From Sideroxydans sp. (lineage in GTDB: Bacteria > Pseudomonadota > Gammaproteobacteria > Burkholderiales > Gallionellaceae), in the NCBI GenBank assembly GCA_028707175.1, contig JAQTUV010000001.1:186001-250000 (forward strand): a stretch of DNA of 64,000 nt. Reading direction: 5' to 3'. The position numbers and the translations under genes are program-made. Shown piece after piece: positions 44,729 through 58,086 of the stretch; the stretch's first letter is position 1; the number at the start of each line of letters is the position of its first letter. The notes below the pieces were generated by a model. It was not told the DNA's origin. It made no database searches and was given only the letters and a program-made list of their open reading frames with translations.

Positions 44729-46426
44729 ATGACCGAAGTTGTTGATATGGAAAGTTTTGCCTCCCTATTTGAAGAAAGCCTGACCCGCAAAGAGATGCGC
44801 GCAGGTGAATTGATCACCGCCCAAGTCGTTCGCGTTGAGCAGAGCGTGGTTGTGGTTAATGCCGGATTGAAGTCCGAAAGTTTTATTCCTGTTGAAGAAT
44901 TCAAAGACGCAGCAGGTAACATCGAAGTTAAAGCCGGTGATTTCGTTACCGTCGCGATTGAGTCTCTGGAAAACGGTTACGGCGAAACGCGCTTGTCGCG
45001 TGAAAAGGCTAAACGCCTCGCTGCTTGGATCGATCTGGAACAAGCGATGGAAGAAGGCCGTATCGTTGAAGGTTATGTCAGCGGCAAGGTTAAGGGTGGT
45101 CTGACAGCTATGGTTAACGGTATCCGCGCATTCTTGCCGGGTTCGTTGGTGGATACACGTCCAGTTAAGGACACCACTCCATACGAAAACAAGACGATGG
45201 AATTGAAGGTTATCAAGCTAGATCGCAAGCGTAACAACGTGGTGGTTTCTCGCCGTGCTGTGCTGGAAGCGACTCAAGGCGCTGACCGTGAGTCCATGCT
45301 GGAAAACTTGAAAGAAGGCGCAATCGTTAAGGGTATCGTCAAGAACATCACTGACTACGGCGCATTCGTTGACTTGGGCGGTATCGACGGTCTGTTGCAC
45401 ATCACTGACTTGGCATGGCGTCGCGTGAAGCACCCATCCGAAGTGTTGACCGTTGGCGACGAAGTCGAAGCCAAGATCCTGAAGTTCGACCAAGAGAAGA
45501 ACCGTGTTTCTCTGGGCATCAAGCAAATGGGCGACGATCCATGGAATGGTCTGGCACGTCGTTACCCACAAGGTACACGTCTGTTCGGTAAGGTCACTAA
45601 CCTGACTGACTACGGCTCTTTCGTTGAGATCGAGCAAGGTATCGAAGGTTTGGTACACGTTTCCGAAATGGATTGGACCAACAAGAACGTACATCCATCC
45701 AAGGTTGTTTCCTTGGGTGATGAAGTAGAAGTCATGATCTTGGAAATCGACGAACAACGTCGTCGTATCTCCTTGGGTATGAAGCAATGCAAGTCCAACC
45801 CATGGGACGACTTCGCAGCTAACCACCAAAAGGGTGACAAGGTTAAGGGCGCGATCAAGTCCATCACTGACTTCGGCGTGTTCATCGGTTTGGATGGCGG
45901 TATCGACGGTCTGGTACATCTGTCTGACCTGTCTTGGAGCGTCGCTGGCGAAGAAGCTGTGCGCAACTACAAGAAGGGCGACGATCTGGAAGCAGTCGTA
46001 TTGGCTATCGATGTTGAGCGTGAGCGTATCTCCCTCGGCGTTAAACAAATGGAAGGTGATCCTTTCGGCGGCTTCGTTTCTTCCGGCCACGACAAGGGCG
46101 CGATCGTTACTGGTACTGTGAAGTCTCTGGATGCTAAGGGTGCTGTGATTGCTTTGGACGGCGACGTTGAAGCGTATCTGAAGGCGTCTGAAGTTTCTGC
46201 TGACCGCGTAGAAGACATCCGCACACACTTGAAAGAAGGCGACACCGTTAAGGCTGTCATCATCAACGTGGATCGTAAGAACCGTGGCATTAGCTTGTCT
46301 ATCAAAGCGATGGATAAGGCAGATACCGCTGCTGCGATGCAGAAGTTTGCTGCTGATAACACAAGTTCCGCTGGAACAACCAATCTGGGCGCATTGCTTA
46401 AAGCCAAGATGGATTCCAAGTCGTAA
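44729..46426 (+). CDS. rpsA: 30S ribosomal protein S1
   Basis: Binds mRNA and helps load it on the 30S subunit. The 565-residue product contains six S1 RNA-binding repeats, best seen as the recurring phrases [37 protein letters not shown] and [19 protein letters not shown]; the first two repeats are the divergent ribosome-binding ones. Synonymous codon choice is markedly biased, as expected for a highly expressed gene. ATG 44729 ([17 protein letters not shown]) is preferred over an earlier in-frame start at 44675, with GAAAG at 44716-44720. It follows aroA-cmk and precedes ihfB, the classic cmk-rpsA-ihfB order. Confidence 0.97.
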
Positions 46427-46443
46427 TTGATGGAGTGGGTGTT

Positions 46444-46731
46444 ATGACTCGTTCTGATTTGATTGCGAAGCTTGCGGAACGTCACACACAGTTGCTCGGC
46501 AAAGATGCCGAGCTGGCTGTGAAAGTGATTTTGGATAGCATGTCAGAAACGCTTGCACGTGGTGGTCGTATCGAGATTCGCGGATTTGGGAGTTTTGCTC
46601 TCAATTACCGTCCACCTCGCTTGGGGCGCAATCCTAAATCGGGCGATAAAGTGCAAGTGCCGGCAAAATATGTGCCTCACTTTAAAGCAGGTAAAGAATT
46701 GCGTGAGCGTGTAGATTTGCCGCAAGCTTGA
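46444..46731 (+). CDS. ihfB: Integration host factor subunit beta
   Basis: Bends DNA as a heterodimer with IhfA; sigma-54 promoters such as the one predicted for amtB commonly use IHF bending. The 95-residue protein begins [12 protein letters not shown] and contains the HU/IHF signature [27 protein letters not shown] with the intercalating proline in the NPKSG arm. ATG 46444 follows GGAG at 46432-46435. A strong terminator lies 20 bases after the stop. Confidence 0.96.
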
Positions 46732-46750
46732 AATAAATGTAACTGAAGTC

Positions 46751-46789
46751 AATTGGCGGTGCATCGTAAGATGTGCCGCCAATTTTTTT
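46751..46789 (+). terminator. Intrinsic terminator after ihfB
   Basis: AATTGGCGG and CCGCCAATT pair, extended by six further pairs (two of them wobble) to a C-GTAA-G loop of the GNRA type. TTTTTTT follows, so this is a strong Rho-independent terminator closing the aroA-cmk-rpsA-ihfB transcript. Confidence 0.93.
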
Positions 46790-46836
46790 GCTGTTCATGC
46801 TATCTTTGCGCCCTGTTTATGGGTGGCTAAAAGCGT

Positions 46837-47136
46837 ATGCGATATTTAATTTGGGCGTTACGAGGGGCACTGTTTTTTGTCCTACTCGGTTTTGCAGTTA
46901 AAAATGATCAGCCCGTAACATTGCACTATTTTTTCAGTTACGAATGGCATACGTCATTGGTGGTTGTGATGTTCTGTTTTTTTGCGCTTGGCGCAAGCAT
47001 TGGCATCCTCGCGATGATGGGGGCTCTGTTATCTCAGCGTCGTGAGTTGGCTGGGGTGAAGCGAGAGCTACAGTTGAAACAAAAATTGGACTTGGCTGAA
47101 GAAAGTAGCCAGTTACAAAAACAACCTTCAGATTGA
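46837..47136 (+). CDS. lapA: Lipopolysaccharide assembly protein A domain protein (LapA)
   Basis: Small inner-membrane protein of the LapA (DUF1049) family, which in E. coli works with LapB in LPS assembly. The 99-residue product has two hydrophobic helices (about residues 5-20 and 40-62), the conserved VKNDQPVTLHYFF between them, and a charged coiled-coil tail from residue 67. It is immediately upstream of lapB with a six-base gap, the standard pair. Confidence 0.9.
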   Translation: MRYLIWALRGALFFVLLGFAVKNDQPVTLHYFFSYEWHTSLVVVMFCFFALGASIGILAMMGALLSQRRELAGVKRELQLKQKLDLAEESSQLQKQPSD

Positions 47137-47141
47137 ACTCA

Positions 47142-48317
47142 ATGGATTTTGAACCTTGGATGTTGCTGGTTTTTCCACTCTTCTTTGGAATGGGGTGGCT
47201 GGCTGCACGTATCGATATTAAAGAGTTGCTTACTGAATCGAATACGCTGCCGCGCTCATATTTTCAAGGTCTGAACTATCTTCTCAACGAACAACAAGAC
47301 CAAGCAATCGAGGCTTTTATCGAAGTCGTGAAGGTCGATCCACAAACGGTCGAACTGCATTTTGCTTTGGGAAGTTTGTTCAGACGTCGTGGCGAGGTGG
47401 ATAGGGCGATTCGGATGCACCTTAATTTGGTCGAGCGTGCCGATCTGGATGAAGTAAAAAAGCAGCAGGCAATATTCGAACTTGCTCAAGATTATTTGAA
47501 GGCGGGGATATTAGATCGTGCCGAGGATGCTTTTTTAAGCCTGTATGGCACGCCTTACGAAAAAGAAGCGCTTGAATTTCTGCTAGAGATTTACCAGAAG
47601 GAAAAGGATTGGTTAAAGGCGATTGATATCGCACAAAAATTCACAACACTAACAGGCGAGTCGCGTGGAAATCTTGCAGCCTTCTTCTTCTGTGAATTGG
47701 CGACAGCGGAGCTTTCGCACAAACAGATTGATGCTGCCGTTGTTCACCTCGAACAAGCCTTGGGTGTGAATCCAAAGTCGGTACGAGCTAATATCATGTT
47801 GGGAGATATCGAACTGGCAGCAGGGCGATCACTACAAGCGATTGAGATTTGGAAGCAGATCGAGCATCAAGATGCGCAATATCTCCCCTTGGTCGCTGAA
47901 AGAATATTGCAAGCGTGCCGTCAAAACGGTAATGAGGGGACGGGTATCAACCTGCTTCAAACCTACCTTCAGAAATACCCTTCACTTGATTTGATGAACG
48001 TACTGTTCGGTGTCATCGTGCAGCGAGATGGCGCGGAGGCTGCTTATCAATTGGTGCGTAATGAGTTGAAACGTAACCCCACACTATTGGGGCTAGACAA
48101 ATTGTTAGAAGCTCAGCTATTGGAAACGGTGGGTGAGCGACGTGCGGATATCGAGTTGGTTAAGGATTTGATCTATAAACGTACGCGCGGTTTAGCGATG
48201 TATCGTTGTGGGCACTGTGGTTTTAAAGCGCGTCAGTTCTACTGGCACTGTCCAGCTTGCCATAAGTGGGAAAGCTACTCACCTAAACGTAGTGAAGAAA
48301 ATGGATTGACGATATGA
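47142..48317 (+). CDS. lapB: Lipopolysaccharide assembly protein B (LapB/YciM)
   Basis: Membrane-anchored TPR protein that, in enterics, coordinates LPS synthesis with FtsH-dependent LpxC turnover. The 391-residue product has an N-terminal helix ([16 protein letters not shown]), the conserved [20 protein letters not shown] that begins an array of TPR repeats (about residues 40-330), and a C-terminal rubredoxin-type zinc site (CGHCGF and CPAC). ATG 47142 was chosen over an in-frame TTG at 47133 that overlaps lapA. It overlaps pyrF by four bases. ftsH, its functional partner in other species, is encoded at 1766. Confidence 0.94.
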
Positions 48318-49015
48318 GTGAACCTAAAATCATTGTGGCGCTTGATTACGCTCAAGCTGAGTCTGCATTGGCATTGGCGAATCGGTTAGACGCATCATTT
48401 TGCCGGCTAAAAGTGGGTAAAGAGTTATTCACCTCAGCGGGGCCTCAATTAGTTGAGCAATTGCAAAAACTTGGCTTTGATGTCTTTCTCGATTTGAAAT
48501 TCCACGACATACCGAACACCACGGCGCAAGCATGTAAAGCTGCCGCTGGCTTGGGAGTTTGGATGGTCAATGTGCATGCGCTGGGCGGGAAACGTATGAT
48601 GGAAGCTGCGCGTGAAGGTTTGGCCCATGTGCAACAACGTCCTCAGTTAATCGCCGTGACGATTTTGACAAGCATGGCGCAAGAGGATCTTTTAGGGATC
48701 GGCCTCACCGCAACCCCCGCCGAAATGGTTTCGCGTCTAGCGGGTATGGCGAAGGATAGCGGATTGGATGGGGTCGTGTGTTCTGCGCAAGAGGCTCAGT
48801 TGCTACGCCAGCAATGTGGTACAGAGTTTTGTTTGGTGACGCCTGGGATACGTCCTGCGAATGCTGCTGCAAATGACCAGTCTCGTATCATGACGCCGCG
48901 CACCGCACTAGAAAGTGGTTCGAGCTACTTGGTCATTGGACGTCCTATTACGCAAGCAGCAGACCCACTCAAAGCATTGCATGAGATATCACTCGACATA
49001 GGAGGTGTGGCATGA
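48314..49015 (+). CDS. pyrF: Orotidine 5'-phosphate decarboxylase
   Basis: Last step of UMP synthesis. The 233-residue TIM barrel has the catalytic DxKxxD motif in [23 protein letters not shown] at the N-terminus, and the phosphate-binding VTPGIRP and [11 protein letters not shown] motifs. It overlaps lapB by four bases and hldE by four bases; the lapB-pyrF linkage is widely conserved. Confidence 0.96.
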
Positions 49016-49965: not shown

Positions 49966-50964
49966 ATGTACTACATCGTTACTGGAGCTGCTGGATTCAT
50001 TGGTTCAAATATCGTGAAGGCGCTCAATGAGCGTGGCGAGACCAATATCATCGCTGTAGATAATCTCACCAAGGCAGATAAATTCAAAAATCTGACAGAT
50101 TGCGACATCGCTGATTTCTTGGACAAGAATGATTTCATCGAACGTCTCAAGGCAGGACATTTCAAGGGCCTGACTACGGCAGTGCTACATGAAGGTGCGT
50201 GTTCTGACACCATGGAAACGGATGGCCGTTACATGATGGAAAACAACTATCAATATTCATTGACCTTGCTTGATCATTGCCAGCGTGAAGAAGTGCCATT
50301 TTTGTATGCCTCATCGGCATCCGTCTATGGTGGCGGAGGTGTATTCAAAGAGAGTCGCGAATATGAATCGCCGCTTAATGTCTATGCCTACTCGAAATTT
50401 TTGTTCGATCAAGTCGTGCGTCGTCGTTGGAGCAAGCGCACTTCGCAAATCGCAGGTTTTAGATATTTCAATGTGTATGGACAGCGCGAACAACACAAAG
50501 GACGTATGGCGTCCGTCGCATTCCACTTCTTCAATCAATTCCGCGCGGACGGTTATGTGAAGCTATTCGAGGGCTGTGACGGTTACGGCAATGGCGGACA
50601 GTTGAGAGACTTCGTCTCTGTTGAAGATGTGGTCAACGTAAATATGTATTTCTTGGATCATCCCGGTAAATCAGGAATCTTCAATTTGGGTACCGGCAAG
50701 TCGCAAAGCTTCAACGATGTTGCTGCCGCAACCATCAATACATTACGTGCTGAAAAAGGTGAAAGTGCATTGACCTTGGAGCAGATGCATCAACAACAAT
50801 TGATTCGTTACATCCCATTCCCTGACGCATTGCGCGGAAAATATCAAAGCTATACACAAGCTGATATTACCGCTTTGCGTGATGCAGGGTATGCAGGTCA
50901 ATTTTTGACCGTAGAGCAGGGCACAGCCAATTATGTGAATCATATGTTAGGCAAAACAAAATAA
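49966..50964 (+). CDS. hldD: ADP-L-glycero-D-manno-heptose 6-epimerase
   Basis: Last step in ADP-L-glycero-D-manno-heptose synthesis. The 332-residue extended SDR protein has the NADP-binding [10 protein letters not shown], the SSASVYGGG strand, the catalytic Tyr-Lys pair in [11 protein letters not shown], and the substrate segment [20 protein letters not shown], diagnostic of HldD. AAGGAG precedes the ATG. It completes the lapA-lapB-pyrF-rfaE1-hldD envelope cluster. Confidence 0.96.
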
Positions 50965-51023
50965 ACCTTTGTTTGGCTTAATCAAGCTATATGTATTATT
51001 CAATCATCTAAAGGGGAAATAAG

Positions 51024-51371
51024 ATGAAGAAAACAACCATACTATTTGTCGTATTGTTTGCTATGGCAGGCGTTGCACATGCCGCGTCAAGGGTGGAGAC
51101 CATTCCGTTTGATGCATCCACCGTGATTGGCGATGATGAATCGTCTAGCGAAGAGCGCACTAGCAAAACGAATCGTAACGATAAAAAAGACAATAAAACA
51201 AAAAATAATAAAAAAGATAAAGATAGTCGTAAGGTCGAGCCTGAAGTGGATAAAGAGAGCAACCAAGATTCAGTGCAGAGCATCAAGCATGAAGAACAGT
51301 CACATCAACCTGACAAGCAGAAGCGAAGCAAAAAAGCAAAGAAGAGTAAGAAAGAACATAAGCACGATTGA
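51024..51371 (+). CDS. Small exported lysine-rich protein, function unknown
   Basis: The 115-residue product has a clear Sec signal peptide (MKKTTILFVVLFAMAGVAHA, probable cleavage after residue 20). After a short neutral stretch, residues 37-115 are almost entirely Lys, Asp, Glu, Ser, Asn and Gln with no hydrophobic core, so the mature protein is probably disordered in the periplasm. The end is strongly basic (KRSKKAKKSKKEHKHD). An AAGGGG ribosome binding site supports translation. I recognise no family. It might bind nucleic acid, phosphate-rich LPS or metal, but this is speculation. It may be transcribed with hldD or alone. Confidence 0.65.
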   Translation: MKKTTILFVVLFAMAGVAHAASRVETIPFDASTVIGDDESSSEERTSKTNRNDKKDNKTKNNKKDKDSRKVEPEVDKESNQDSVQSIKHEEQSHQPDKQKRSKKAKKSKKEHKHD

Positions 51372-51799
51372 TTTTCTAGCTGCTAGAGGAGTAATAACAG
51401 GCGTTGTCTGTGCGTACGGAGAACGCACCACAAAGGCTATAAGGTCTGAGTTTGGGGCATGTGTCTGACTTATGTTCGTGTCATAGTTTATGAGGTGCAC
51501 ATGACAGGAAAATATCGATGATGATCGATTCGTACGGCAATTTTCATGCAGTACACGTGATGCTTTTATTCTGACTTGCGCAGGCGGTATTCAAGAAGAG
51601 GCGCCTCTTTAGGAAAACTGTTTTTGTATGTGGAAGTAACAGAATGCTCCGATGCTGTAGTGACAGAGAGAAAGTTGGTGCACTGTATGAAGGAGAGCGC
51701 GCTTATGGGCGTTTTAGTGGCGCTATCGGAGATAGCCATCGAAGCATACAGCCGCTAATTGAGTAACAAGTTTCATTCTAAAAATTCCTGCCCTGCATT
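51372..51799. other. Intergenic region without a recognised gene
   Basis: About 428 bases. A 60-codon open frame at 51576-51758 has no ribosome binding site and no recognisable features, so I do not call it. The region contains ATCGAT-GATG-ATCGAT (51514-51529) and a perfect 14-bp palindrome AAGAGGCGCCTCTT (51596-51609). It presumably holds the promoter of the sensor kinase gene. Confidence 0.6.
51596..51609. repeat. Perfect 14-bp palindrome upstream of the sensor kinase
   Basis: AAGAGGCGCCTCTT is fully self-complementary without spacer and lies about 190 bases before the kinase start. It is long enough to be a dimeric repressor or activator site; no matching regulator can be named. Confidence 0.6.
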
Positions 51800-53881
51800 T
51801 TGAAAGCTCCTAACGACTTGAAAAACCTCATTACAAATTGGCCTGCGGTACAGGATGCTTTGGCCGAGCAACTATTTGCCTCTCATCGAGCGTCTATTGT
51901 GTCTGGCATCGTGCTTGTTTCAATGTTGGCATACATGCAGTGGGATGTTGTTGATCACACTGTAATAACAGTATGGTTTGTGTTGATGCAGGCCATTCAG
52001 GTGGCGCGCATCATGCTGCTTTCATTCTATAGAAGCAGGCCCGTTGAGAGTGGAAGCTTTGTGAAAACGCGCTTGCGAATGTTTCGAATCGGGGTGTTGT
52101 TAGGCGGAATAGGTTGGGGCGCATCGGCATATTGGTTGTACCCATTGGAGGAGCCTCAACATCAGATGTTAATCATCATTTTGTTGATCGGCCTTTCGAC
52201 AGCCAGTATTGCATCGTATGCGGCTGATCTTATCAGTGCAGGTTTGTTTCTCAATTTAACTTTGCTGCCACTGATCGTGAGGTTGTTGTTTGTTGGTGAT
52301 TCCACGTCAACAGCACTGGCACTATCGGGATTGCTGATCATTATTTTTATGTCCATTAGTATATGGAAAGTGAATAAAAGTTTAGTTGAAAACATCCAGC
52401 TACGATTAGAGGCTAATTCAAGAGAGCACCTCATTAAAACTAGCGAAGAGGGCTATCGTCTTTTACTTAGGCATTCACCTGTAGGCATCTTTCATTTTGA
52501 TAAAAATCTAGACATCACCTATTTCAATGATCGCTTTAAGGAATTGTTTGAAAATCGAGATCGATCACAGAGAAGTGCGACTGCTGTGTTTCGGAGTTTG
52601 CACTCTATTCAGGTATGGCTAAGTAAAGTAATCGATGGTGAGACTATTTCCATTGAGCACGCATGTGATCGTCTGTCTGGTCAAAGTAGCCAATCATGGA
52701 TTCAGCTATCTTGTGCACCTTCTTATGATAAGCATGGTCATGTCGACGGCGGGGTGGCGATTGTTGAAGATATCTCCCTGCGTAAACGAACTGAAGAGGA
52801 AGCTCTTCTTTCCAAGCAAGAGTTAGAGGCTAAGCGTGTTTTATTTCAAACCCTTCTAGACAATGCTCCCATAGGTATTTGGCTTTTGGGGGCAGATGGC
52901 AAGATTAAATTTATCAATCGTGCTTTTTGCAGTTCAGTGGGAGTCACAGAGGAACAGTTTAAGTCTGTTGCGCATTACTCTGAGCTGCTTACGCCGCAGG
53001 TTTCTGAAAATTGTATTAAATCAGATGAGGCGTGTTTCCAAGTTGATGGGGTGCATACATCCCAAGAGTGGATTCCTTTTGTTGATGGAAAAGAACATTT
53101 GTTGGAAATTCATAAAGTGAAATTGATCAACAATGACGGTGAAATTGTTGGATTGATTGGGCTTGCTACGGACATTTCTCAGCGCCATCATTTAGAAACC
53201 GCTCTGCTTGACTCACATCAAACGCTTCGTGATTTATCGGAGCAGTCAGAAATTCTTCGGGAAGAAGAACGCAAGTACATCGCTAGAGAAGTGCATGACG
53301 AATTGGGGCAAATTTTGACCGCATTGCGGATGGACGTCGCGCTTATCAGTTTACGCTTTGGTGCTCAGAATTTTGAGATGCTAGAGAAAACAAGGGGAAT
53401 GACAGTTTTGTTGGATAAGGCTGGGCAATGTGTGCGGAACATTGTGTCTGATTTACGTCCGAACGTACTGGATATTGGCCTTGTCTCGGCATTGAAATGG
53501 CTTGGTGATGAATATGCTGAACATACTGGGAATGCGTTTAATTTTGAGACCAATGAGGAATCCATTGACGTTGAAGAGGTGGGAGCGGCATCCATTTTTC
53601 GTATCGTGCAGGAATCGCTTACCAACGCTTCTCGGTACGCAGGTAAATGTACGCTTCATATCAAGCTGATACGGCAGGGGGATGATTTACGTATAGAAAT
53701 TCGTGATACTGGAAGGGGATTTGATTATGACGACATCCCCAAACAAAAATCCTTTGGTCTATTAGGAATGCGTGAGCGAGCAATTTCGTTAGGGGGGGAA
53801 TTGCAGATTACCTCCGAAAAAAACAAAGGTGTGTTTATTGAGTTGCTTGTGCCAATTTCTCGGAAAGGCGATGGACAATGA
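51800..53881 (+). CDS. Membrane sensor histidine kinase with two PAS domains (NarX/HisKA_3 class)
   Basis: The 693-residue product has an N-terminal membrane region of about five to six helices (residues 30-190), a PAS domain (about 215-325), a second PAS domain (345-462), a HisKA_3 dimerisation domain with phospho-acceptor His499 in AREVHDELGQ, and an HATPase domain with N box QESLTNASRYA (near 605), G1 DTGRGFD (636) and G2 FGLLGMRER. This is the NarX/UhpB/DegS class that pairs with NarL-type regulators, and such a regulator follows with a four-base overlap. The start is a TTG at 51800 without an obvious ribosome binding site, so the N-terminus is uncertain. The stimulus is unknown. Confidence 0.9.
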   Translation: MKAPNDLKNLITNWPAVQDALAEQLFASHRASIVSGIVLVSMLAYMQWDVVDHTVITVWFVLMQAIQVARIMLLSFYRSRPVESGSFVKTRLRMFRIGVLLGGIGWGASAYWLYPLEEPQHQMLIIILLIGLSTASIASYAADLISAGLFLNLTLLPLIVRLLFVGDSTSTALALSGLLIIIFMSISIWKVNKSLVENIQLRLEANSREHLIKTSEEGYRLLLRHSPVGIFHFDKNLDITYFNDRFKELFENRDRSQRSATAVFRSLHSIQVWLSKVIDGETISIEHACDRLSGQSSQSWIQLSCAPSYDKHGHVDGGVAIVEDISLRKRTEEEALLSKQELEAKRVLFQTLLDNAPIGIWLLGADGKIKFINRAFCSSVGVTEEQFKSVAHYSELLTPQVSENCIKSDEACFQVDGVHTSQEWIPFVDGKEHLLEIHKVKLINNDGEIVGLIGLATDISQRHHLETALLDSHQTLRDLSEQSEILREEERKYIAREVHDELGQILTALRMDVALISLRFGAQNFEMLEKTRGMTVLLDKAGQCVRNIVSDLRPNVLDIGLVSALKWLGDEYAEHTGNAFNFETNEESIDVEEVGAASIFRIVQESLTNASRYAGKCTLHIKLIRQGDDLRIEIRDTGRGFDYDDIPKQKSFGLLGMRERAISLGGELQITSEKNKGVFIELLVPISRKGDGQ

Positions 53882-54507
53882 TTCGCCTACTTATTGCTGA
53901 TGACCATGCGATCGTGCGTGCTGGGATCAATCAGCTGGTTGCTCTAACTAACAAAATAAAAGTGATCGCTGAGGCATCAACAGGCGGAGAGGTCCTGAAT
54001 TTTCTGAATGAGGTAGATGTCGATTTAATCTTGCTTGATTTAAATATGCCTTCGGGCGGAATTGAATTAATCCGACAAATAAAATCAGCTTTTCCGAAAT
54101 TGCCGATACTCATTTATAGCATGCACGATGATGCACATATCGCCATAGAGGCTTTTAAGGCAGGGGTCTCAGGATACTTCACAAAAAATAGCGACCCTAC
54201 GCAACTAATGTCCGCGATTTTTAAGGTATTCAACGGTGAGCGGTATATTGACCAAGCTATAGCTGAAAAAATGGCTTTTGAAAGCGCGTTCCCAGGTAAA
54301 AAGTTACCTCACACTTTACTTTCCGCCAGAGAGCTAGAAATATTTCGCTTAATGATTGTGGGAATGAGTGGGAACGAGATAGCACAGAAGTTGTTCATCA
54401 GTACCAAAACGGTCAGCACACACAAGAGCAATTTATTTCAAAAAATGGAACTCCATACTGTCGCCGATCTGGTTCTTTATGCGGTTCATCACAATTTACT
54501 CGATTAA
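53878..54507 (+). CDS. NarL/FixJ-type response regulator
   Basis: The 209-residue product has a receiver domain with the acidic pair Asp8-Asp9, phospho-acceptor Asp54 in LLDLNMP, Ser81 and Lys103, then a LuxR-type helix-turn-helix (about 145-207) with SARELEIFRLMIVGMSGNEIAQKL and STKTVSTHKSNLFQKM (each quoted in part). All switch residues are present, so it should be phosphorylated by the preceding kinase and bind DNA as a dimer. It overlaps the kinase gene by four bases (ATGA). Targets are unknown; the downstream module at 54697 is the obvious candidate. Confidence 0.93.
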   Translation: MIRLLIADDHAIVRAGINQLVALTNKIKVIAEASTGGEVLNFLNEVDVDLILLDLNMPSGGIELIRQIKSAFPKLPILIYSMHDDAHIAIEAFKAGVSGYFTKNSDPTQLMSAIFKVFNGERYIDQAIAEKMAFESAFPGKKLPHTLLSARELEIFRLMIVGMSGNEIAQKLFISTKTVSTHKSNLFQKMELHTVADLVLYAVHHNLLD

Positions 54508-54527
54508 AGCTCAATGAATCGCTGTCC

Positions 54528-54547
54528 CTAGGAATAATCCTAGTTTT
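54528..54547 (+). terminator. Short hairpin with T4 after the response regulator gene
   Basis: CTAGGA-ATAA-TCCTAG is followed by TTTT, 20 bases after the regulator stop. The stem is only six base pairs, so termination would be partial. It separates the two-component pair from the GTPase module. Confidence 0.45.
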
Positions 54548-54604
54548 GACAAGGCTATTCCTTAGGAAATTTCAGCCCCTTCTGATTACCTCATTTTCAT
54601 CCCA

Positions 54605-54614
54605 TTGCTATAGT
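54605..54614 (+). promoter_or_regulatory. Candidate extended -10 promoter for the GTPase module
   Basis: TTGCTATAGT contains TG-N-TATAGT, an extended -10 with five of six consensus bases (hexamer 54609-54614). A weak -35 (TTACCT) lies 17 bases upstream. The start point would be about 75 bases before the next ATG. Confidence 0.35.
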
Positions 54615-54696
54615 CGCTTCAAGAGTTGAGGAATGGTCAACCTGTGTATTTGGTTGAGTTCTCGCATGGAGTGATTAGCGTGATGCAGAGGGAAAT

Positions 54697-55335
54697 ATGA
54701 GTGTCGATGTTTTAAACAGGCCGAGCAGAGACGTGCTTCTCATGCCAACAATTCATTTGCTCGGAATCATTCAGCGCATTATCGCTACTGGTCAAAACAC
54801 CCTTGTTCTTTTGCCAGGCATCGGGGATGTCATGATATTTCCCAAACGAAATGAATATTATTCCTCGGTTAAAGACATGGCGGAATTTTGTGACGCGCCG
54901 ATTATTAAATACAAATTGGTGGTTATTGGGGAATCCGATTTATCGACCGAGCAATCTGTGTGTCGCGGATTAGGTGAGCTAATGTGGCATTTTGCATTTG
55001 CTTCCCCAAGCGCACAATTGCTGGATGAATATTCCATTTATGACGTTGTGAAATTCAAGCAATGGCCCAATTTGACGCGCCTTCCCTCAACACCTAACAC
55101 TTCACGAATCATATCGCTACTTACCCGTCATCCAACCACGCTTGCGCATGTGCAGCAAAAACTAAAAATTGAATCTTCTGAAATTCATCAGGTGTTCAAT
55201 GCAGCTCACTATGCGGGGATTGTTGAGGTTGTTTCTCGGGCTCGTGCCAAGGCATCGGCACCTTGTATTCAGGTCAAGCCAAGCCATGAGCAGAATTTCT
55301 TTCGCTCCTTATTTACCAAATTCGCAAAGCCCTAA
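54697..55335 (+). CDS. Unknown protein with winged-helix-like C-terminus, part of GTPase module
   Basis: The 212-residue product is not one I can place in a named family. Residues 12-125 look like a mixed alpha/beta domain (strands NTLVLLPGIGDVMIFP and IIKYKLVVIG). Residues 135-180 read like a winged helix (ISLLTRHPTTLAHVQQKL, then SSEIHQVFNAAHYAGIVEVV), resembling in size and pattern the DUF742 proteins encoded next to small GTPases in actinobacteria. A basic linker and the tail FFRSLFTKFAKP end it. It has no signal peptide or membrane helix. The stop is three bases before the GTPase start, so the two are almost certainly coupled. A role as GTPase partner or effector is inference. Confidence 0.7.
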   Translation: MSVDVLNRPSRDVLLMPTIHLLGIIQRIIATGQNTLVLLPGIGDVMIFPKRNEYYSSVKDMAEFCDAPIIKYKLVVIGESDLSTEQSVCRGLGELMWHFAFASPSAQLLDEYSIYDVVKFKQWPNLTRLPSTPNTSRIISLLTRHPTTLAHVQQKLKIESSEIHQVFNAAHYAGIVEVVSRARAKASAPCIQVKPSHEQNFFRSLFTKFAKP

Positions 55336-55338
55336 TCG

Positions 55339-55893
55339 GTGAAAAACAAAATAATAATCACGGGAGCGGTTGGGAGCGGGAAGACCACCGCCATCACTTC
55401 TGCTAGCGACACCTTGGTGGTTGATACAGAAGCTGCTGACACAGATCGGATGCGTGGGGAAAGTTCAAAAACCACAGTTGCCATGGATTATGGAACGCTG
55501 AATCTAGGGGCAGGGGCAAAGATGCATTTATTTGGCACGCCCGGTCAGGAGAGATTTAGTTACATGTGGGAAATCCTGTCTACTGGTGCAACGGGAATAG
55601 CCATTTTGATTGATGCCACCAGTGTCAATCCCCTAGGCGATTTAGATTTTTATCTGGAAGTGTTTTCAGATCTCATCTCTAAGTGCGGCGGCGTTGCTGT
55701 GATTGGAATAACACACACTGATGTCACGCGAAATTCAAGAATATTGGAGCAGTTTAATAAAAGGCTTTCTGAAGTCAGATTGTCCGTACCTGTTTTTGAG
55801 GTTGATTGCCGCCGCAGAGAGGATGTGAGGACGATGCTTTATTCGCTGCTCAGTTTGTCAGAGAGTGATGACACTCATGCTTTATCCCATTGA
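55339..55893 (+). CDS. Ras-like small GTPase (COG2229/MglA-type)
   Basis: The 184-residue protein has the P-loop GAVGSGKT (residues 9-16), a threonine-rich switch I candidate (SKTTVAMDYG) and a G3 motif written LFGTPGQERF (residues 64-73), where the usual aspartate of DxxGQ is glycine, as I recall for the COG2229 prokaryotic GTPases. G4 is THTD (125-128) in place of NKxD. MglA likewise departs from the DxxG aspartate. Such GTPases act with Roadblock proteins as switches for polarity or signalling. The start is GTG, three bases after the previous stop, with no separate ribosome binding site. The Roadblock gene follows at 56043. Confidence 0.88.
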   Translation: MKNKIIITGAVGSGKTTAITSASDTLVVDTEAADTDRMRGESSKTTVAMDYGTLNLGAGAKMHLFGTPGQERFSYMWEILSTGATGIAILIDATSVNPLGDLDFYLEVFSDLISKCGGVAVIGITHTDVTRNSRILEQFNKRLSEVRLSVPVFEVDCRRREDVRTMLYSLLSLSESDDTHALSH

Positions 55894-55995
55894 AAAAGTT
55901 GCAGCGCCTCTTGTCTTAGCGCTCTTCTTTTGAATAAGCGGGTGCTAAAACTGTAAATTGATTCGCGCTGTCCCCGTTTTTGAGGGGGCAGAGGG

Positions 55996-56016
55996 AATTT
56001 GAATAGCAGTCAAATT
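55996..56016 (+). repeat. 7-bp inverted repeat before the Roadblock gene
   Basis: AATTTGA-ATAGCAG-TCAAATT lies 27 bases before the Roadblock ATG in a 149-base gap. It could be an operator or a small hairpin affecting expression of the two downstream genes. Confidence 0.4.
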
Positions 56017-56042
56017 GGATTCCCCAAATTTTCGAGTAAACA

Positions 56043-56465
56043 ATGAAAAATGAACTTCAGCAAAGGCTTGATGCAGCAAAAGTATCAATTATGTGCGCTG
56101 CTCTTAGAGAGCTAAACGCCGCTATGTCTGATATCGAGGCATCGGCATACATTTCTCTAGATGGCTACACGATCGCAGCTGAGCTTGCTAGTGGCGTTGA
56201 TTCGAACCGATTGGGAGCGATTTGCGCATCTATGCATGCGCTTGCGCAACGCGCGTCTCAAGAAATTAAGCACGGCGCATTTAATCTGCTCTTGATAGAA
56301 AGTGAGCAGGGTTACATGTTGTTGGTGAAGAGCTCTGTAGAGGCAATGTTGGTCGTTTCGACAAAGCCAAGTAAAAGCTTGGGAATGATTGCGTCTGTCT
56401 CAAAGCAGTTTGCAGAAAAGCTCAAGCGCATTCAGGAGACCCACAAGGTCGCTGCTGCAACTTAG
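56043..56465 (+). CDS. Roadblock/LC7 domain protein
   Basis: The 140-residue product has the compact alpha-beta-beta-alpha-beta pattern of Roadblock/LC7 proteins. A long N-terminal helix (QQRLDAAKVSIMCAALREL) leads to strands AYISLDGYTIAAEL, a helix AICASMHALAQRASQEI, and the strands FNLLLIESEQGYMLLVKS and AMLVVSTK. In MglB and related proteins such dimers regulate a partner Ras-like GTPase, here most simply the GTPase encoded 150 bases upstream. No signal peptide or membrane segment is seen. Assignment rests on fold pattern and context. Confidence 0.8.
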   Translation: MKNELQQRLDAAKVSIMCAALRELNAAMSDIEASAYISLDGYTIAAELASGVDSNRLGAICASMHALAQRASQEIKHGAFNLLLIESEQGYMLLVKSSVEAMLVVSTKPSKSLGMIASVSKQFAEKLKRIQETHKVAAAT

Positions 56466-56504
56466 CAATATTCGCGGTTTCGTAAGTTAAATAAGGGGAA
56501 TGCA

Positions 56505-56972
56505 ATGGGACTGTTTGACTGGTTTTCAGCTTTATCAAAGGGGGATGAAGGCAAGGCGGCTAAGCATGTCACCCCAGTCGGAGGTATTCAAGAAAGCGCG
56601 CACATACAAGGCTTGGACTTTGTTGCAGCCATTGAGGCTCACCGTAAATGGAGAGCACGGTTGGCTGAATATGCTGAAGGCACCTCTAAAGAAGTGTTAG
56701 ACCACTCGGTTATATGTCGAGACGACCAATGCGCTTTAGGCAAATGGATTTACTCCGAAGGACAAACTTTCACGGGCCATTTACCCCTCTTTCATCAAAT
56801 CAAAGCGAAGCATGCACAGTTTCACGTCAGTGCAGCGCAAGTGGTTGAGCTAATCCAGGCAGATCGCAAGGAAGAAGCGATCAACGATTTGATGGAGGGT
56901 GAGTTCTCAAAAAATTCGCGTGATGTACAAACGTTACTGTCGCAGCTGTATATGCTGATGAAACAGTCGTAG
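56505..56972 (+). CDS. Stand-alone chemoreceptor zinc-binding (CZB) domain protein
   Basis: The 155-residue soluble protein consists of a short N-terminal segment (MGLFDWFSAL) and a CZB domain from about residue 38. The 3His/1Cys zinc ligands are recognisable: His46 in AHRKWRARL, Cys76 in QCALGKWIY, and histidines in LFHQIKAKHAQFH (97-107). CZB domains usually end chemoreceptors or diguanylate cyclases, where zinc binding tunes signalling; here the domain is free. AAGGGG precedes the ATG. It is 39 bases after the Roadblock gene and probably in the same transcript, which suggests that zinc or redox input reaches the GTPase module. Confidence 0.85.
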   Translation: MGLFDWFSALSKGDEGKAAKHVTPVGGIQESAHIQGLDFVAAIEAHRKWRARLAEYAEGTSKEVLDHSVICRDDQCALGKWIYSEGQTFTGHLPLFHQIKAKHAQFHVSAAQVVELIQADRKEEAINDLMEGEFSKNSRDVQTLLSQLYMLMKQS

Positions 56973-57111
56973 CCCACTCCCTCCTGCATCGCGGCAGAGT
57001 TTTTTCGACCGTTAGACTCAAAGCTTCATAGCTTATGACAACAGGTTAGTTAGTTTGCTACTTATATTCAGCTAAACTTTGCCCATCTGTCATCCTATTC
57101 AAGAGGCCCTT

Positions 57112-58086
57112 ATGTCGAACGTATTTGAAAACAACTCACTTTCCATTGGACGTACGCCGCTGGTCAAACTCAATCGTATTGGTGATGGTGCGAAAGCTAC
57201 GATCTTGGCCAAGATCGAAGGGCGTAATCCTGCGTATTCCGTGAAATGCCGTATTGGCGTTGCCATGGTTGATGATGCTGAGAAGCGCGGTGTCCTTGGC
57301 CCCGGCAAAGAGATCGTCGAGCCTACCAGCGGTAACACAGGTATTGCTTTAGCTTTTGTGGCCGCAGCGCGCGGTATTCCACTGACCTTGACCATGCCTG
57401 AAACGATGAGCGTTGAGCGCCGCAAACTACTCGTCGCGTATGGTGCAAAATTAGTGCTGACAGAAGGTGCTAAAGGCATGAGTGGTGCTATCGCGAAGGC
57501 GAAAGAAATTGCCGCGTCGGATTCGAAATATGTCTTGTTGCAACAGTTCGAAAACCCAGCTAACCCAGCCATTCATGAAGCCACCACGGGCCCAGAGATT
57601 TGGAACGATACCGATGGCAATATCGATATCTTGGTTTCAGGCGTAGGCACAGGCGGGACCATCACGGGCGTGTCGCGTTACATCAAGAAGACGCGCGGCA
57701 AGCTAATTCAGACGGTTGCAGTCGAGCCCTCGGCGAGCCCTATTTTGACGCAACACCGCGCAGGCCAAGAGCTCAAACCTGCCCCTCACAAGATTCAAGG
57801 TATTGGCGCGGGTTTTGTTCCTGGCGTGCTCGATCTATCGTTGGTGGACACCATCGAACAAGTGACGAATGAGGATGCCGTGTTGTATGCACGTCGTTTG
57901 GCGCGTGAAGAAGGCATCCTGTCGGGCATCTCTTGCGGCGCAGCCGTTGCTGTCGCGGCACGTTTGGCAAACAAGCTTGAGAATGCAGGAAAGACCATCG
58001 TCGTTATCCTGCCGGATTCAGGCGAGCGCTATCTGAGCTCGATTCTTTTTGAAGGAATGTTCGACGCAGCCGGCATCGCGAGTTGA
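57112..58086 (+). CDS. cysK: Cysteine synthase A (O-acetylserine sulfhydrylase)
   Basis: PLP enzyme that makes cysteine from O-acetylserine and sulfide. The 324-residue product shows the PLP lysine in [11 protein letters not shown], the substrate loop [10 protein letters not shown], the phosphate-binding [14 protein letters not shown], and a serine in PDSGERYLS near the end. The SVKCR form (Cys where CysM has Asp) is that of E. coli CysK. ATG 57112 is supported by AGAGG at 57102-57106. It is separated from cysM by a terminator, so the two paralogues are transcribed independently. Confidence 0.95.

Follow-up and report, generated by a model that had tools for sequence, protein, structure and literature searches.

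A putative Group 3 MglA/MglB gene set with a stand-alone CZB gene in a six-gene block of Sideroxydans sp.

The MglA/MglB systems of Group 3 were described by Wuichet & Sogaard-Andersen in 2014 as a beta/gamma-proteobacterial kind (PMC4316618). Their traits include a threonine in the G2 motif of the GTPase, GTPGQ in G3, a G4 motif without lysine, DAR in G5, a coupled MglB with an Asp-Gly pair encoded beside the GTPase, within four genes, and a neighbouring protein with a receiver-like N-terminus and a C-terminal winged helix, the latter being typical of the group and not strictly defining. The mglA gene of Snodgrassella has been assigned to Group 3, its locus having winged-helix, GTPase and MglB genes in one run; two coupled and one orphan mglB are reported there, and an allele of the orphan is reported to alter pilus-dependent motility (PMC11112851). 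Conservons (AGPS) also combine a kinase input, a Roadblock GTPase-activating protein (GAP), a small third protein and a GTPase, with the CvnB counterpart as the GAP and the CvnC counterpart as a likely guanine nucleotide exchange factor (PMC13343842). Here we compare with these systems a block of six genes at positions 51,800 to 56,972 of a 64,000-nucleotide stretch (the window) of contig JAQTUV010000001.1 of Sideroxydans sp. (assembly GCA_028707175.1). The block runs in one direction throughout, on the plus strand, and encodes in order a membrane histidine kinase, a response regulator, a winged-helix protein, a small GTPase, a Roadblock protein and a CZB protein. An initial annotation made from the letters alone had named six consecutive plus-strand genes, and the open reading frame (ORF) listing of the window found six at exactly those places, with the expected families in Pfam searches and fold prediction. 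We think it probable, with no more than modest confidence, that the last four genes (54697-56972) form a Group 3 MglA/MglB switch which is tuned by a plug-in redox sensor and acts on type IV pili.

The winged-helix, GTPase and Roadblock genes

The MglA-like GTPase (55339-55893, GTG start) matches the Pfam families ATP_bind_1 (3.8e-11) and Ras (2.9e-5), and its motifs GAVGSGKT, KTT, GTPGQ, THTD and DCR are intact. Set against the Group 3 motifs, it has threonine for arginine in G2 (KTT, residues 44-46), GTPGQ in G3 (at 66) and a G4 without lysine (THTD, at 125), whereas G5 reads DCR (at 156) rather than DAR, with the arginine retained and the alanine replaced. In a tree of 123 rows, which has no labelled Group 1, 2, 4 or 5 references and whose bootstrap had not settled, it falls inside a 113-row group that also holds the Snodgrassella gandavensis locus (L032), a few actinobacterial rows and one verrucomicrobial row. 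Its nearest relatives are proteobacterial, and it sits weakly (support 86/87, less than the tool asks of a firm branch) beside that of the Gallionella metagenome-assembled genome L016, whose GTPase, winged-helix and Roadblock proteins are the closest to the window's among 80 related loci. The GTPase was detected in none of the 33 congeners searched, some of these genomes being incomplete, and 13 pattern matches in viral contigs included no relative of it.

The Roadblock protein (56043-56465) matches Robl_LC7 (1.9e-10) and keeps the Asp-Gly pair (LDGY), and so resembles the coupled MglB of Group 3; it is presumed to be a GAP. The three genes also occur together elsewhere. Among the 80 loci, which were anchored on the GTPase, 62 have a winged-helix gene at up to 1.5 kb from it, 66 a Roadblock gene at up to 3 kb and 56 both; when 20 further loci were anchored on the winged-helix protein instead, a GTPase was found within 400 bp or fused in 17, this set being not wholly separate from the 80 as L018 and L181, whose contigs are equally long, appear to be one locus. 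The possibility raised in the initial annotation, that these genes might never be neighbours in other genomes, can therefore be set aside. On motifs and neighbourhood, the core is a Group 3 MglA/MglB system of an unusual variant, which differs from the described kind in the missing receiver-like N-terminus of its winged-helix protein, in its G5 motif and in having a single MglB at the locus; in the window it is preceded by a full two-component pair and followed by a stand-alone CZB gene. The profiles used detected neither a CZB nor a kinase gene in the Snodgrassella gandavensis locus.

The winged-helix protein (54697-55335, 212 amino acids, a short form) gave no Pfam match over a cut-off. A winged-helix fold is predicted (mean predicted local distance difference test score, pLDDT, of 86) and structural comparison agrees; the protein carries a WPNLTR motif, a basic C-terminal helix modelled with low confidence, and a net charge of +4 in the region 130-185. 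It has the C-terminal winged helix typical of Group 3 neighbours and is without the N-terminal receiver domain of longer members of the family, which have a receiver fold there. A Foldseek search returned nothing at E<=0.001; GATOR1/SEA subunits, presumably Npr2/Npr3, head the structural list, yet they score near unrelated rows, so that kinship with them is a lead given by modelled structure.

The initial annotation had suggested that these genes could be an independently assembled, conservon-like switch, and proposed comparing the winged-helix protein with DUF742, the domain of CvnC. The comparison was made by Pfam on the window protein and 41 winged-helix relatives, and none matched DUF742 at E<=1, a negative that is subject to the HMMER filters and concerns the Pfam profile, not real DUF742 sequences; conservon identity is not backed by it. 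That a true actinobacterial conservon was transferred to a proteobacterium would fit the similar list of parts (kinase, Roadblock, small third protein, GTPase) and the match of the Roadblock sequence to a solved structure annotated as cvnB5 (3leq in the PDB, E 4.3e-6). Besides lacking a DUF742-type protein, however, the kinase ends in ...LLVPISRKGDGQ, without the LPxR of conservon kinases, a response regulator is present where conservons have none, the gene order is not cvnABCD, the host is outside the Actinomycetota and the nearest GTPase relatives are proteobacterial. Such a transfer is therefore very improbable, and we rejected descent from a conservon on DUF742, LPxR, gene order and the response regulator; the independent-assembly claim likewise gives way to a variant form of the Group 3 MglA system already described. 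CvnB and CvnC may still offer the best analogy for the roles of the Roadblock and winged-helix proteins.

The CZB gene and the position behind Roadblock genes

We also compared, among the related loci, the gene that follows the Roadblock gene. We defined this slot as directly downstream of Roadblock, on the same strand and at -60 to 700 bp, and examined it for 67 Roadblock genes in 66 loci. A stand-alone sensor-type or PhnD-like protein occupies it behind 31 of the 67, comprising 15 Aer-type PAS proteins, 6 protoglobins, 4 PhnD-like proteins, 3 FNR-globin proteins and 3 CZB proteins, where Aer-type is partly our own naming. In a control of 446 other ORFs, all lying over 3 kb from the GTPase, the same families follow 11; this control is indicative only, because the sensor families were profiled for being recurrent and neighbouring taxa are not independent. 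One member was compared for each of two families: the PAS representative (L069) matches the Aer PAS structure 8dik (3.3e-38) and the protoglobin of L019 matches globin-coupled sensors and HemAT. Genes of ODP type, presumed to be O2/redox sensors too, lie within 5 kb of the GTPase in 6 of the 80 loci, outside the slot. We offer as a new generalisation that Roadblock genes are often followed by one for a stand-alone O2/redox sensor or a PhnD-like protein; the open-access literature searched gave no report that connects either Group 3 systems to a sensor slot of this kind or CZB to MglA, although one may exist in print. A natural fusion of a globin with a Roadblock domain has been described (PMC4476040).

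In the window the slot is occupied, at +40 bp, by the CZB gene (56505-56972). Its product matches Pfam CZB (6.8e-14), found nothing among PDB sequences at E<=0.01, and retains the 3His/1Cys zinc site (H46, C76, H103 and H107, with CALGKW), following the motif given in PMC8262984; it is predicted, by family and conserved site, to bind zinc. CZB domains have been proposed in a preprint to act as redox sensors via zinc availability (PMC13370339).

The same genome holds a second CZB gene, 82% identical to that of the window and with the 3His/1Cys residues conserved, as the next gene after those for a CheW protein, a methyl-accepting chemotaxis protein and a CheA-like protein of 1672 amino acids that has four Hpt stretches. 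In this cluster (L186) the families CheW, MCPsignal, Hpt, Response_reg and HATPase_c are backed by Pfam, PilJ and H-kinase_dim being under the cut-off, and we take the cluster to be of PilI-PilJ-ChpA type. The congeners G020, G016 and G010 have a CZB gene in the same position, in clusters placed by gene position rather than by Pfam scan. The two CZB copies of the Sideroxydans genome group together, with the congener copies outside (nine-row FastTree, support 1.0), and the PilT family is over the cut-off at three places in this genome. The identity, sister placement and PilI-PilJ-ChpA-like context suggest that a pilus-linked sensor was copied next to the MglA/MglB pair: on sequence relationships, the window CZB is a lineage-specific copy of that of the pilus chemosensory cluster, the latter adjoining a CheA-type system and the former a GTPase set.

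We therefore propose a scheme in which the GTPase would cycle between GTP and GDP, with the MglB-like Roadblock protein as its GAP or co-regulator and the winged-helix protein binding it as a regulator or effector, rather than being a plain DNA-binding repressor. The CZB protein, in the place held in other loci by Aer-type PAS, protoglobin or FNR-globin proteins, may sense zinc or redox state and adjust the Roadblock/GTPase pair, and the GTP form of the GTPase, together with the winged-helix protein, may act on the type IV pilus machinery, the likely output being pilus activity or polarity. This suggests a redox-steered control of surface movement. Of the guesses in the initial annotation, polarity or motility as output gains from the copy of a pilus-cluster CZB, and a zinc or redox signal from the recurring redox/O2 sensors in the slot. 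The inputs and outputs of Group 3 MglA are not settled in the literature found, and the slot and the pilus-cluster CZB offer a testable input (O2, redox or zinc) and output (type IV pili); the locus is a natural experiment in that one sensor, CZB, stands where relatives carry another. More tentatively, and as a possibility in which we have less belief, Group 3 MglA in general may be a CheA-independent taxis switch, in which a Ras-like GTPase, its Roadblock GAP equipped with exchangeable stand-alone O2/redox sensors of types known from aerotaxis receptors, steers type IV pili; here the CZB would have been copied from the pilus cluster so that both systems of pilus control share one kind of input.

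The kinase and regulator genes and the insertion between hldD and cysK

The first two genes encode a sensor histidine kinase (51800-53881) and a response regulator (53878-54507), whose ORFs overlap by 4 bp. The kinase has about six hydrophobic segments at its N-terminus, followed by two PAS stretches, HisKA_3 (2.6e-11) and HATPase_c (1.3e-12), with H499, N604 and DTGRG intact; the regulator has Response_reg (9.6e-25) and a LuxR-type helix-turn-helix of the GerE family (6.7e-19), with D8, D9, D54 and K103 intact, so that the pair has both the His/N-box of a kinase and the Asp/Lys of a receiver. The regulator scores best against PRK15369 and UvrY/GacA, under both curated cut-offs. The NarX-type label given in the initial annotation holds for the HisKA_3/HATPase end of the kinase but not for its N-terminus, where PAS follows the hydrophobic segments. 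No match spanning the whole kinase was found among those listed from 80 related genomes, a limited number of candidates being scored for each. The weak hairpin and possible promoter that had been proposed in the gap before the winged-helix gene (54508-54696) were not borne out: a promoter/terminator scan of the gap listed none, and a perfect 6-bp inverted repeat, the only one there, can be put down to chance (281 of 1000 simulated sequences).

The whole block lies between hldD (49966-50964, plus strand), matched in 34 of 34 genus genomes (in G008 and G029 at 32-33% identity only, probably a paralogue), and a cysK-like gene (57079-58086, plus strand). The hldD-cysK gap is about 135-170 bp in L142-L145, the loci of the four congeners whose hldD is most like that of the window. 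Stretches downstream of hldD were compared for 20 of the 33 congeners; in 14 of them cysK is no more than 1.3 kb away, in G030 it is at 6.0 kb with different genes in the gap, and in five the stretch did not contain it. Homology to the congener gap resumes at 56983, ten bases past the CZB stop, in a terminator-like relic of the intergenic region (56983-57012, plus strand), so that a single insertion of about 6.0 kb (50965-56982) is indicated; the six genes and one small ORF therefore probably entered together, or were jointly lost by relatives. The small ORF (51024-51371, plus strand) encodes a lysine-rich protein of 115 amino acids with a signal-peptide-like start, as judged by eye, and no Pfam match over its cut-off. 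GC content is 42-47% inside the insertion and 50-53% in the adjoining 2-3 kb, but as it is 46-48% at 46000-48500, composition is no proof of foreign origin and is not used as an argument here. In G030 (L159, 1080-7100) a different insertion of about 6 kb occupies the same site, which may be an insertion hot spot.

The presence of all six genes in one insertion supports, without proving, a joint role of the kinase/regulator pair, and its link to the GTPase genes rests on this co-insertion and on scattered parallels. A CZB gene is beside the GTPase set in four loci (L048, L055, L065 and L074), and in three of these the set also adjoins a gene for a kinase-like (HATPase_c) protein, that of L055 being a contig-edge fragment with 25.3 bits against a cut-off of 26.4. 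In L055, L065 and L074 the kinase-like gene comes first, followed by those for Roadblock, CZB, winged-helix protein and GTPase, and L055 and L074 have a further CZB; in L048 the CZB was checked by Pfam and no Roadblock was detected. L055, L065 and L074 are closely related among themselves, and the GTPase tree places them away from the window; the window and these Thiotrichaceae-type loci appear to have reached a similar list of parts separately. Elsewhere, the gene immediately before the winged-helix gene encodes a kinase in L031 (receiver and HATPase_c over the cut-off, HisKA just under) and a receiver-GGDEF-EAL protein in L162, and a LuxR helix-turn-helix protein is divergent to the winged-helix gene in L034. 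Most likely, the window pair would set expression of the block or replace the receiver domain missing from the winged-helix protein.

These same data bear on whether the block is three unrelated pieces (the kinase/regulator pair, the Group 3 set and a duplicated CZB) brought together in an insertion hot spot with no joint function. The pair is separated from the other genes by 189 bp and is not kept beside the GTPase in related loci, the CZB is a paralog native to this genome, and G030 carries a different insertion at the site; yet a kinase-like protein, winged-helix, GTPase, Roadblock and CZB occur together in another order in L055, L065 and L074, CZB is directly behind Roadblock in those three and in the window, and the block runs in one direction. 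We regard a chance assembly of this kind as doubtful.

Several observations weigh against a redox-tuned pilus switch. Besides the limits of the slot control given above, no profiled family is found behind 27 of the 67 Roadblock genes and another gene of the core families is behind 9, while for 5 of the 31 slot cases (L027, L081, L093, L094 and L095) no winged-helix gene was detected in the locus. The CZB gene is beside the set in only 4 of 80 loci, the CZB relative of G027 is located elsewhere and not beside chpA, and the genus is rich in CZB proteins, with 11 matches in the Sideroxydans genome including the window's, which makes a neighbouring CZB less surprising. The kinase/regulator pair is not repeated elsewhere beside the GTPase set, the kinases of L055, L065 and L074 are non-homologous to the window kinase (no meaningful BLAST similarity) and that of L031 has a different, receiver-HisKA-HATPase architecture. 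The pair is not a conserved partner, and of the six genes whose co-occurrence the initial annotation proposed to look for, those for the winged-helix protein, GTPase and Roadblock proved to be widespread neighbours, with CZB in the few loci named. The pilus output also competes with a transcriptional one, suggested for Group 3 by its describers (PMC4316618), in which the winged-helix protein would bind DNA, gated by the GTPase and Roadblock, and the kinase/regulator pair would control the same promoters. The predicted winged-helix fold, the charge of its 130-185 region and the LuxR-type regulator gene next door are consistent with such a switch, which we consider unlikely, and the pilus-directed Group 3 system remains our preferred reading.

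Other cassettes related to the GTPase set

Ten loci (L016, L017, L034, L076, L079, L085, L127, L162, L163 and L165) have cassettes in which, unlike in the window, an ABC ATPase-dual-specificity phosphatase (DSP) gene and a second Roadblock-like gene of about 135 amino acids are present, several with FNR-globin; several share the short winged-helix protein with the window. For this group Pfam was run on L016 proteins only, and profile hits in L129, L131 and L178 were left out of it; a 1081-amino-acid protein 6 kb away in L129 also matched in the kinase-neighbour profile scan. In L016 (8599-12708), L017, L034 and L162 an ABC ATPase fused to the phosphatase, a Roadblock-like protein of 133-136 amino acids, a Roadblock protein and a 2Fe-2S/FNR-globin protein are found. 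A candidate for this fusion elsewhere in the Sideroxydans genome was rejected, as no listed match goes beyond query residue 308 and the phosphatase domain lies at 335-428.

In 37 of the 80 loci a conserved protein (cluster c5, about 240-500 amino acids; for example L046, 5844-6572) is encoded no more than 3 kb from the GTPase; it is absent from the window cassette, and the one member scanned had no Pfam match. Behind Roadblock, L044 and L046 encode an exported protein of about 550-580 amino acids, with an N-terminus that we take to be FimV/LysM-like and, for L046, only weak coiled-coil matches in Pfam; in L038 and L045 a gene of comparable length occupies this place.

Two Robl_LC7 matches were found in the Sideroxydans genome (G000), that of the window and one on another contig, C14 (L008, G000:C14:182000-197000), in a second Group 3-like cassette that is also seen in L010 and L140. 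It encodes a winged-helix protein, a kinase-like domain fused to the GTPase (as judged by eye), a protein of about 224 amino acids, a Roadblock protein and a PhnD-like protein. The fusion partner is presumably a serine/threonine kinase, from its motifs, and the fused frame is found again in G056 and, judging from its length, in G346 and G184.

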